Below are positions 10,476-35,796 of a stretch of 64,000 nucleotides of DNA, one piece after another. Position 1 is the stretch's first letter; each line of letters begins with the position of its first letter. The stretch covers positions 1-64,000 of the forward strand of contig NZ_CAKPUG010000005.1 of NCBI RefSeq assembly GCF_934191625.1, read 5' to 3'. Position numbers and translations under genes: made by a program. This DNA comes from an uncultured Lactococcus sp. Its GTDB lineage: Bacteria; Bacillota; Bacilli; Lactobacillales; Streptococcaceae. A model generated the notes under the pieces. It worked only from the letters and a program-made list of their open reading frames with translations, was not told where the DNA came from and did not search any database.

Positions 10476-10605
10476 GTTCTTTTTGCTTTAGCAAATTAGA
10501 ACGATAATACGCAGGGAGCGAAGCGAGTTGTGAACAATATAAAGTTCTTTTTGCTTTAGCAAATTAGAACGATAATACGCAGGGAGCGGAGCGAGTTGTG
10601 AACAA
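10476..10605 (+). repeat. tandem 62-bp intergenic repeat, two copies
   Basis: Units 10476-10537 and 10544-10605 differ at one base (gcgaagcg versus gcggagcg). Each begins with an imperfect hairpin (GTTCT...TTTGC TTTA GCAAA..AGAAC) and carries the GC-rich block GGGAGCGAAGCGAG, unlike the AT-rich surroundings. No ORF or transposase is associated. It could be a REP/MITE-like element. Confidence 0.85.
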
Positions 10606-33692: not shown

Positions 33693-33814
33693 AATTCCTT
33701 CTATTTTAACATATTTTTAAATTCATTTTCTTCTTCCTTAATGATAAGTGCCATATTTCTGGATAAAGTAACAAAAGAAAAAAACGTAACTTTAACTCAA
33801 CTAAATAAATCTTT

Positions 33815-33842
33815 TTGAAACAAAACTGATAAATGTTAAAAT
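33815..33842 (+). promoter_or_regulatory. promoter of the CAGCA-repeat leader ORF
   Basis: TTGAAA (33815-33820), 16 bases, TAAAAT (33837-33842) with TG one base upstream. Predicted transcription start is near 33849, so ATG 33846 is not transcribed intact and ATG 33885 becomes the first usable start. Confidence 0.75.
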
Positions 33843-33884
33843 ATTATGAGAGGACATCTTAAAGTATTTAGTAGAGGAAACGAA

Positions 33885-34049
33885 ATGAATTATAATCAGT
33901 CAGCACAGCACAGCACAGCACAGCACAGCACAGCACAGCACAGCACAGCACAGCACAGCCATAGCTTATGTAACGCTCAAAAAGATGTTCACTCCAAGAA
34001 AAGAAAAAATCAAGGAGTGAAATCTTATGAGACAAGAAAAAAAGCATAA
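33885..34049 (+). CDS. repeat-containing leader ORF (54 residues as sequenced)
   Basis: ATG 33885 is preceded by AGAGG (33873-33877) at 7 bases, downstream of a good promoter. The peptide starts MNYNQSAQHST, repeats the five-residue unit TAQHS as the translation of the CAGCA tract, and ends in a lysine-rich tail. It stops at TAA 34047-34049, 20 bases inside the next gene in another frame. With one more pentamer it would stop at TGA 34018-34020; with one fewer at TAG 33962-33964. No protein family is suggested. The peptide itself may be irrelevant and its translation the point. Confidence 0.7.
   Translation: MNYNQSAQHSTAQHSTAQHSTAQHSHSLCNAQKDVHSKKRKNQGVKSYETRKKA
33901..33959 (+). repeat. pentanucleotide microsatellite (CAGCA)11
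   Basis: Eleven perfect CAGCA units (33901-33955) plus a final CAGC. A unit of 5 bases changes the reading frame with every gain or loss. Perfect tracts of this length are prone to slipped-strand mispairing. Confidence 0.97.
33982..34026 (+). promoter_or_regulatory. hairpin sequestering the SD of the secreted-protein gene
   Basis: TTCACTCC (33988-33995) pairs perfectly with GGAGTGAA (34014-34021); the stem continues below a bulged G33987 as AAGAT (33982-33986) with ATCTT (34022-34026), giving 13 pairs around an A-rich 18-base loop. The SD AAGGAG (34012-34017) has its GGAG in the stem and the stem ends at the start codon. There is no T-run, so this controls translation rather than termination. 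Confidence 0.75.
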
Positions 34050-35682
34050 ATTACGTACTATTGCAGTTTTAGTCTTATTCTTATTGGTAGGAGGAACATT
34101 TGCCTTTCAAGCTTTTAACCAACAAGTTATCAATGACCGACTGAGAGAGAATCAAGTAGCAGTCGGAGGCCGTGTGCATGACTATTACAACCGTGATACC
34201 GAGAACAAGGACGTCTTTGTCGAAAACTATGGGCAAGAGCCCATCATGGCTCGGATTCGCCTGTCGGAGTTCATGGAGATTCAAGAACGGGGTACAGTCG
34301 GTTTTACCCCGATAGCAGGCGGTAGTCGTGGAGACGTAAGTACTTGGACGCCTTGGAAACCAAGTGAAGATAATCTTGATGACCGCGTAGGTGATTCGGA
34401 TGCATTCGACCAATATTCTAATCTGACCTTTGGTTGGGAACGCAACGGCCAAACAGCACCTTGGTATCTGCCAACCTTTAATCATGATAAGAGTAATTTA
34501 ATGACGGCAGCCGCAGGTCATGCCCGTGATTGGGTGGCCAGTGGTGGAGCGACAGACGGAGTCACAGATGGTACTACTCACCCCGGAGATGGCACAGACG
34601 AATACTGGTCTCAGGGCGAAAGCTATGACAACAGCGCTGGAAAATGGGAAGGCTCTGCGGTCACGCGTGAAACAGTCCAGCACTTGCCTCAAGCAAAAGA
34701 AGTGATGACACTAGAGAGCTGGTCAAGACTTCCCAATGCGCAAAAGATTGGCTATTTCTGGGTGGTTGACCATGAAACAGGCTGGGCATACTGGGCGAGT
34801 CAGCTCCATGCTGGGCAAGCCACCTCTTACTTGCTTGACGCAGCAGAGATGACAGCAGCGGCAGACCAGATCTCAGGTTCTTATTATTATGGTATCCATG
34901 TCGACAGTCAGCTTATTAATCTGGAGGAAGTTTTTAAAGATGAGCCGACAGAAGGACATGATGGCAACTTGGGTGTACTGCTTAAAGGGATTCGAAACAA
35001 TGCGGTAGATGATGAGATAGACAATGGTGGCGGACTGCCAACGGAAAATCCCGATTATAATGACGATTCACCTGTTGGAGATTTTAACTTTGGGATTATG
35101 AATCCAGGGCGTATTTTCACCATGGAGGGTGAGCAATTCCGCTATCTTGAAGATATGCAAAACGGTAATCACTTGATTATCCGTAATGACGCATTTCGTA
35201 GAGTTTCTTGGAATGAGCAAGAGGATGAATTAATATCATGGTATGGACAACTTGAGGGAGCTGTTCAAGAGATAGTAGCACCAGTTGCTGATAGCTTTAC
35301 AGTAGGAATGATTACAGGTGCGCAAGGTGGACTTGATGCGCAAGAGTGGCTTTTCAGAAATCTGGCTTCTAATCCTGTGGTTTACTCAGATGTTACTAGG
35401 GTTGTTCCAGAAGCTGAGGGTGGCGTTAAGCGTGCCTTTGCCTTATCTTTAAGAGATGTTAACCGCCTGTCTGGAACAGGGCTTGGCTTCCCTAACCCTG
35501 AACAACGTGTAGGGGCTAACAACAGCTGGTGGTGGACACGTACCCCTTCTTCTGATGATAATGCTTGGCGTGTGAACACTGGCGCTCGTCTTGGTCAGTT
35601 TACTAGTAGTATTCGCACGAATAGCGCTACCAATGGCGGTATGCGCCCAGCCCTTATCATTCATCAAAATGTTGGGGGTTAA
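34027..35682 (+). CDS. secreted protein with SipW-like signal and C-terminal DUF6273-like domain
   Basis: A 551-residue protein. The N-terminus has a basic start, a hydrophobic core and LLVGGTFAFQAFNQQ, resembling the SipW-dependent signals of TasA-like matrix proteins. The middle is rich in Trp, Gly and Asp (TFGWERNGQTAPW, GYFWVVDHETGWAYW). The C-terminal 150 residues end in NSWWWTRTPSSDDNAWRVNTG...GGMRPALI, the pattern of DUF6273-type FGE-like domains. There is no LPXTG motif or C-terminal membrane anchor. Start ATG 34027 has AAGGAG at 9 bases, buried in a hairpin. Base composition is visibly richer in G+C than the neighbours, suggesting acquisition. Function is unknown; a surface or matrix role is inferred. 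Confidence 0.8.
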   Translation: MRQEKKHKLRTIAVLVLFLLVGGTFAFQAFNQQVINDRLRENQVAVGGRVHDYYNRDTENKDVFVENYGQEPIMARIRLSEFMEIQERGTVGFTPIAGGSRGDVSTWTPWKPSEDNLDDRVGDSDAFDQYSNLTFGWERNGQTAPWYLPTFNHDKSNLMTAAAGHARDWVASGGATDGVTDGTTHPGDGTDEYWSQGESYDNSAGKWEGSAVTRETVQHLPQAKEVMTLESWSRLPNAQKIGYFWVVDHETGWAYWASQLHAGQATSYLLDAAEMTAAADQISGSYYYGIHVDSQLINLEEVFKDEPTEGHDGNLGVLLKGIRNNAVDDEIDNGGGLPTENPDYNDDSPVGDFNFGIMNPGRIFTMEGEQFRYLEDMQNGNHLIIRNDAFRRVSWNEQEDELISWYGQLEGAVQEIVAPVADSFTVGMITGAQGGLDAQEWLFRNLASNPVVYSDVTRVVPEAEGGVKRAFALSLRDVNRLSGTGLGFPNPEQRVGANNSWWWTRTPSSDDNAWRVNTGARLGQFTSSIRTNSATNGGMRPALIIHQNVGG

Positions 35683-35701
35683 CTGACTCCTATAAAATGA
35701 C

Positions 35702-35726
35702 GACTTGTCTTTAAGACAAGTCTTTT
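35702..35726 (+). terminator. terminator after the secreted-protein gene
   Basis: GACTTGTCT / AGACAAGTC perfect 9-bp stem with a TTAA loop followed by TTTT. Confidence 0.88.
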
Positions 35727-35796
35727 CGTTAGTGAACATCTCTTTAACAGGCTAAGTCTATATTGCCACAGAATAGTAGAAGAATTATAGTTAGAC

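Follow-up and report, generated by a model that had tools for sequence, protein, structure and literature searches.

How might a pentanucleotide array that lies ahead of a gene, outside its coding frame, control the output of that gene? The question is raised by a locus in the window, a 64,000-nucleotide stretch of an uncultured Lactococcus sp. in which CAGCA repeats precede a 551-codon target gene (34027–35682) flanked by what we take, from our own reading of their sequences, to be hslO (reverse strand) and purA. The first 1,000 bases of purA are 90–93% identical to those of five genomes, including L. ileimucosae, L. garvieae and L. petauri, an identity that, by sequence, places the window in the Lactococcus garvieae group. 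The array is separated from the target open reading frame (ORF) by a stop codon (TGA 34018), and the target has its own Shine–Dalgarno sequence (SD) and ATG; by sequence, the array sits inside a leader ORF with a ribosome-binding site (RBS) and ATG of its own. We consider it probable that leader and array together form a repeat-counting switch that acts on the target through an SD-hiding hairpin. The features of the locus are as follows.

33729..35780 (approximate), between hslO and purA: inserted cassette (promoter, leader, array, hairpin, gene, terminator)
33815..33842, forward strand: promoter-like pair P1, TTGAAA-16-TAAAAT, scoring 10/12
33874..33877, forward strand: leader SD, GAGG
33885..34049, forward strand: leader ORF as it stands with 11 units, 54 aa, ATG 33885–33887, TAA 34047–34049
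33891..33896, forward strand: TATAAT within the leader, invariant at the DNA level in relatives (13/13 loci)
33901..33959, forward strand: (CAGCA)11 array plus partial CAGC
33962..33964, forward strand: TAG, leader end at 10 units by frame computation, predicted OFF
33982..33995, forward strand: 5' arm of the SD-hiding hairpin in the predicted fold, G33987 bulged
34012..34017, forward strand: target SD, AAGGAG
34014..34026, forward strand: 3' arm of the hairpin in the predicted fold, containing GGAG of the SD
34018..34020, forward strand: TGA, leader end at 12 units, between SD and target ATG and in the target frame, predicted ON
34027..35682, forward strand: target gene, 551 aa
35702..35726, forward strand: intrinsic terminator 3' of the target gene

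The array comprises 11 full units (33901–33955) and a partial CAGC ending at 33959, matches its unit at 100% and is the longest perfect short-unit repeat in the window; a 20-base stretch of it had eight matches in the window, versus none in 100 shuffles. The unit is free of stop codons in all frames, and its length is not a multiple of three. In the proposed mechanism, repeat number would set the leader reading frame, the frame would set where the leader ribosome stops, and the stop position would decide whether the hairpin over the target SD is opened. A preliminary description of this DNA had given leader stops for 10, 11 and 12 units, and recomputation agreed: leaders end at TAG 33962 (17 nt ahead of the stem), TAA 34047 (+20 from the target ATG) and TGA 34018 (−9), respectively, so that frames differ in stopping before the hairpin or in or past it. 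The promoter-like pair (TTGAAA at 33815–33820, a 16-nt spacer and TAAAAT at 33837–33842), the leader ORF with its own SD (GAGG at 33874–33877, ATG at 33885) and the 11 perfect units were likewise found as that description had placed them. Because the five promoter-like matches in the P1 region do not exceed the 4.4 expected, P1 rests on similar pairs, judged by eye, that lie about 70–95 nt before the leader ATG in relatives. The leader ATG stands at a fixed distance from the array in 13/13 loci, comprising the window and the 12 relatives with enough upstream DNA and not selected for an ATG, with codons 2, 5 and 6 variable; in Lactococcus relatives this ATG is preceded by GAGG, GGGG, GGAG or AGGAG.

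Computed folding confirmed the 13-bp stem with one bulge that the preliminary description had proposed, in which GGAG of the target SD is buried. AAGAT (33982–33986) pairs with ATCTT (34022–34026) and TTCACTCC (33988–33995) with GGAGTGAA (34014–34021), leaving G33987 bulged, and the 3' arm is the SD, followed directly by the ATG. The suggested check of hairpin stability was borne out for the stem itself (33984–34032; −12.2 kcal/mol, z −2.91) and for the 101 bases from 33960 to 34060 (z −4.18 versus shuffles), but not for the entire 33846–34066 stretch, whose stability was ordinary (z −0.82). In the untranslated leader RNA, the mean predicted probability that GGAG is unpaired was 0.0005, and the U and G of the target AUG were also predicted to be mostly paired. 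GGAG was hidden equally well or better in 6 of 1,000 shuffles of the preceding segment (p = 0.006); the same kind of test scored with AGGAG, the first A of which is unpaired, gave p = 0.093. No terminator was found between the array and the target ATG, where the stem lacks a following T-run, and Rfam gave no match within the window at the gathering threshold.

To a crude approximation, with ribosome footprints imposed as unpaired stretches, the ensemble had GGAG closed in free RNA and with a ribosome at TAG 33962, open with a ribosome at TGA 34018 or in the loop, partly open with a ribosome covering just the 5' arm (0.65, 0.05, 0.05 and 0.50) and closed again once the ribosome had reached TAA 34047. 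This model suggests OFF, ON and intermediate states, rather than two ON and one OFF. A leader of 10 units (n = 1 mod 3) would release its ribosomes at TAG 33962, short of the stem, leaving the SD closed (OFF). A leader of 12 units (n = 0 mod 3) would carry them into the stem, opening it, and on to TGA 34018 on the SD (ON); the target would then be fed by the freed SD and by re-initiation. At the present count of 11 (n = 2 mod 3), translation would continue through the stem to TAA 34047 and free the SD only in passing; an intermediate state is predicted here, as the hairpin can re-form once the ribosome has passed. The earlier expectation that two of three frames open the SD therefore holds for 12 units, as does the closed state for 10, but 11 units are moved to the middle. 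The switch would be inherited and could be reversed through slipped-strand copying of the array.

The preliminary description had presented this indirect action through a leader frame as a departure from usual phase variation, but the principle is not new: pil1 of S. gallolyticus provided a precedent in 2014 (PMC3894217). According to the available text of Danne et al. 2014 (PMC3894217), the length of a leader ORF depends on the GCAGA repeats it contains, and longer leaders prevent a premature terminator; pil1 expression fell after mutation of the leader RBS and ATG and rose after terminator deletion, chloramphenicol abolished the pil1 increase, and the switch also worked in L. lactis, less sharply. 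Since leader-frame control had already been shown there, the window would be a case of a known principle. As that text describes them, pil1 and pil3 resemble the window in carrying a pentamer array (GCAGA = AGCAG) within a leader ORF that has an RBS of its own and a promoter upstream, in letting the leader frame decide ribosome access to a hairpin ahead of the target, and in having a surface structure as output. They differ in repeat unit (AGCAG, versus AGCAC in the window) and in that their hairpin is an intrinsic transcription terminator, whereas that of the window pairs the target SD, lacks a T-run and would act at the level of translation. The window appears to be a translational-output variant of pil1-type leader-frame phase variation. 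The claim of indirect action through a leader and an RNA structure thus fits the anatomy, the recurrence of the layout and the pil1/pil3 precedent; for this locus itself, we infer that P1 is transcribed, that the leader is translated, that the array slips and that the target responds. In translation attenuation of the ermC/cat type, a leader ribosome opens an SD-hiding hairpin, the trigger being a drug-stalled ribosome. The window shares with these systems a target SD that is paired, here by prediction, in the untranslated leader RNA, but its trigger would be repeat number. In S. suis ModS, according to the available text (PMC8125046), a GAGCA(n) tract similarly shifts a frame but, unlike in the window, lies inside the target ORF itself.

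The sequence, its frames, the computed fold and the recurrence of the layout are direct observations, and the last of these extends well beyond the window. A scan of species genomes revealed 62 loci related to the target, 16 of which have AGCA[C/G] arrays upstream (only about three units in L001 and L038), some of the 62 being truncated by contig ends. The pattern ATG-NNN-TATAAT-array occurred in 5 of 18 genus genomes, with three to eight copies in each and no hits for a reversed-pattern control, and AGCA[C/G] arrays of about six or more units were present in 33 of 295 family genomes, two of which (G023 and G032) also gave control hits. Of 52 distinct array loci flanked by 60 or more bases upstream and 150 or more downstream, we kept 36 for tabulation, chosen by the family start motif plus hand-picked L067, L099, L100, L105, L112, L120 and L121; the 16 left out have coding-frame arrays or a target that is not clear. 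A terminator-like hairpin lies between array and SD in 28 of the 36 (weak in L100 and L121), with a search that ends 8 nt before the target ATG and a criterion that was loosened after a stricter version missed the G008 loci. Among the tabulated Lactococcus relatives, 24/29 have such a terminator between leader and gene; in the window and some others it is the SD that is hidden. Terminator-class Lactococcus leaders (L002, L030, L079–L093 and others) share the SD-ATG-NNN-TATAAT-array module and the target family with the window but carry a terminator-like hairpin between leader and gene (−9.6 to −14.6 kcal/mol with T6 in those named) that the window lacks, and are closer to pil1 than the window is.

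In each of the eight terminator-free loci (the window, L042, L043, L050, L051, L071, L105 and L112), one frame ends 34–67 nt ahead of the target ATG and one or both of the others end within −18 to +20. In the L. petauri genome (L042, L043, L050, L051 and L071), leader frames stop 34–55 nt ahead of the ATG, on the SD (−18) or within an ATGA overlap (+1), and L038 has a similar pattern with −43. The SD is buried (probability unpaired 0.00) in L105, L112 and L121, where one of the frames terminates at TAATG or slightly past it and the targets resemble DNA methyltransferases (N6_Mtase, N6_N4_Mtase and HsdM, respectively); these three may act both ways, because their hairpins score as T4 terminators under a looser 3' limit. 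SD hiding exceeded that of shuffles (Fisher p = 2e-5) over a ten-locus set grouped after seeing the data, namely the eight terminator-free loci, L038, added by hand despite an array under three units, and L121, placed there despite its weak terminator; in five terminator-class comparison loci the value was p = 0.71. Single-locus p values ranged from 0.007 to 0.84, with L050 (p = 0.84, probability unpaired 0.40) and L051 (p = 0.40) showing no such hiding individually, and L120, which stood outside both groups among the 16 loci tested, gave p = 0.066.

The element before the array could instead be a promoter (TTGACx-17-TATAAT) with its start within the array, with repeat number tuning transcription or the clearance of the promoter, and with an SD and ATG that are incidental. 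In 46 of the 52 array loci, which are non-independent, a near-consensus promoter (at least 10/12) has its −10 ending just before the array, versus 0.52 expected from mononucleotide shuffles. The leader codons TAT and AAT are invariant in 13/13 loci, third bases included, which speaks for a DNA-level role of TATAAT. In these 46 loci an SD and ATG, the leader's or, in coding-frame arrays, the gene's own, lie inside or on the promoter, an overlap seen with two distinct ATG positions with respect to the −10; RNA begun at the overlapping promoter would lack that ATG. We nevertheless regard this explanation as improbable. The window has lost the −35 (TTAGTA; SD/ATG region 33868–33896), and its score of 9 was reached by 26 of 200 shuffles, yet it retains SD and ATG; in Lactococcus, the ATG falls in the spacer, for which a promoter requires no particular sequence, and is still kept in 13/13; and mutation of the leader RBS and ATG in S. 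gallolyticus gave low, homogeneous expression (available text of PMC3894217). With its overlapping −35 degenerate and the score not above chance, P1 is the likely promoter for the window. That the overlapping element is a decoy promoter, or a means of keeping the array unstable, are guesses.

Equally doubtful, in our estimate, is a frame-independent role, in which repeats alter only leader length, spacing or mRNA stability and the hairpin is a static damper of expression. The 26 terminator loci compared (the 28 without weak L100 and L121; for L024, the start of the stem was assigned manually) all have one or more frames that end short of the terminator and one or more that reach it, but shuffled spacers already give 21.8/26, so this frame split is little evidence by itself. 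No variant allele of the window locus was seen in a leader-peptide database search, which is biased towards the 11-unit frame and returned one sequence, the window's own, on six contigs. Set against such a role are the pil1 variants, which followed repeat number modulo 3 (available text of PMC3894217), the kept leader start and a unit that is stop-free in every frame. The kept start (13/13) and the experiment in a relative are stronger support for the frame-reading switch than the frame split. By frame, 20 of 28 terminator loci would at present be OFF and eight ON, with L100 and L121 uncertain.

In comparisons that are all between species rather than cells, arrays with upstream flanks 92–97% identical differed in unit number (32.8/7.8/8.0/7.8, 19/14, 6/36/11.8 and 15/8). 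Most of these variable arrays are coding-frame ones: the 32.8/7.8 and 6/36 sets lie in methyltransferase-type coding frames of other genomes, and the 15/8 pair (L024/L030), in which the unit also changes from AGCAC to AGCAG, is the sole Lactococcus leader among variable orthologous arrays. L065 and L085 (12 and 14.8 units) have the upstream flank in common but not the gene, and L090 and L093 (27 and 54 units) are only 75% alike. The differences among orthologues support slippage of such arrays in general. It is very unlikely that the array was formerly in the target frame as a ModS-like ON/OFF coding repeat, with the leader an N-terminus that decayed or was wrongly started. Elsewhere in the family, long ORFs (L114, L117 and L123) do have in-frame AGCAC/AGCAG arrays behind their ATG, and L117 is a DNA methylase, as in S. 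suis ModS (available text of PMC8125046), but the 12-unit leader, in the target frame, meets TGA 34018 three codons before a target ATG with its own SD, and aligned target-family members begin at about the same residue with an SD in front.

The frame-reading switch would act on a protein that is likely secreted, given an N-terminal helix or signal and a variable, DUF6273-like C-terminal domain. Both domain matches fell below curated cut-offs: 31.3 bits (cut-off 60) for the BsaA family SipW-dependent biofilm matrix protein (TIGR04090) at the N-terminus, and 22.4 bits (cut-off 23.5) for DUF6273 (PF19789), a domain carried by some homologues among the matches listed, at the C-terminus. The target belongs to a large paralogue family: 390 proteins matched at E 0.001 or better (7,997 candidates scored), and the named matches among the 120 listed come from Lactococcus of the garvieae group, often several per contig. 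An alignment of 18 showed a hypervariable C-terminal region. The structure model is mostly poor (mean pLDDT 55.7), with only residues ~341–550 well predicted; the fold search gave no match at E 0.001 or better, and its best match, the C-terminal domain of Legionella Lcl (E 0.039, followed by formylglycine-generating enzyme at 0.22), is a lead only. A diversity-generating retroelement was considered for the hypervariable C-terminus and rejected, as a reverse transcriptase (PF00078) was found in 0 of 5 related genomes. Plasmid carriage (0 matches in 72,556 plasmid records) and viral carriage (49 pattern-matching stretches in viral contigs, none encoding a relative of the target) were also rejected.

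Compared with the five nearest Lactococcus genomes (L124–L128), the window has the entire promoter-leader-gene unit inserted: homology to these ends at 33720–33728 and restarts at 35781–35789, and only 19–90 bp occupy the hslO–purA site in place of the cassette. Gene and array were absent from the 1.5 kb before purA in 14/14 genomes examined, which leaves the window hairpin without an orthologue at this site. Most array-free members of the target family have a different sequence ahead of the gene: some 100 nt ahead of the ATG, 39 of the 62 loci (within L004–L061) carry TTGACC-T(n)-ATACTATAGA in which n varies from 6 to 15, likely a second, promoter-spacer type of phase variation within this gene family. 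Seven of the 62 fall in neither class (L006 and L022, cut off upstream; L057, with no start motif; and L017, L019, L028 and L062).

We hold it an even call that Streptococcaceae share a portable, frame-coded module, an SD-ATG-TATAAT-AGCA[C/G]n leader with interchangeable outputs (a terminator, an SD-hiding hairpin or a stop/start overlap) that leaves target coding frames untouched and randomises repertoires of surface proteins in Lactococcus and of DNA methyltransferases in other family members. The window would be its SD-hairpin form, with three levels (OFF, middle and ON) instead of two. If this form works, the pil1 principle is not tied to transcription termination, and the state of a locus can be read from its sequence as repeat number modulo 3; state would then be predictable and testable for three to eight loci in each of five Lactococcus garvieae group genomes, and likewise for several methyltransferase loci in other parts of the family. 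Phase-variable genes are usually sought through repeats in coding frames or promoters. A leader-ORF repeat leaves its target intact and seemingly constitutive, so such genes can be missed. The words 'leader', 'attenuation' and 'gallolyticus' are absent from the available main text of a 2025 phase-variation review (PMC11868660), and we found no description of the SD-hairpin form or of the Lactococcus members in the open-access literature, a result short of proof of absence.

Leader-type arrays also precede methyltransferase or restriction genes in other family genomes: L099 (MmeI-like), L105 (N6_Mtase), L112 (N6_N4_Mtase), L120 (HSDR_N and N6_Mtase) and L121 (HsdM). These are possible phasevarions of a kind that coding-frame searches can miss, three of them with SD-burying hairpins. 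In an L. garvieae genome (G002), locus L067 has an array leader and a terminator-like hairpin before a surface-type gene with Flg_new and Big_3 domains. Elsewhere in the window, a 68-base unit is tandemly duplicated, near-perfectly, at 10476–10605 (1.9 copies, 98%).
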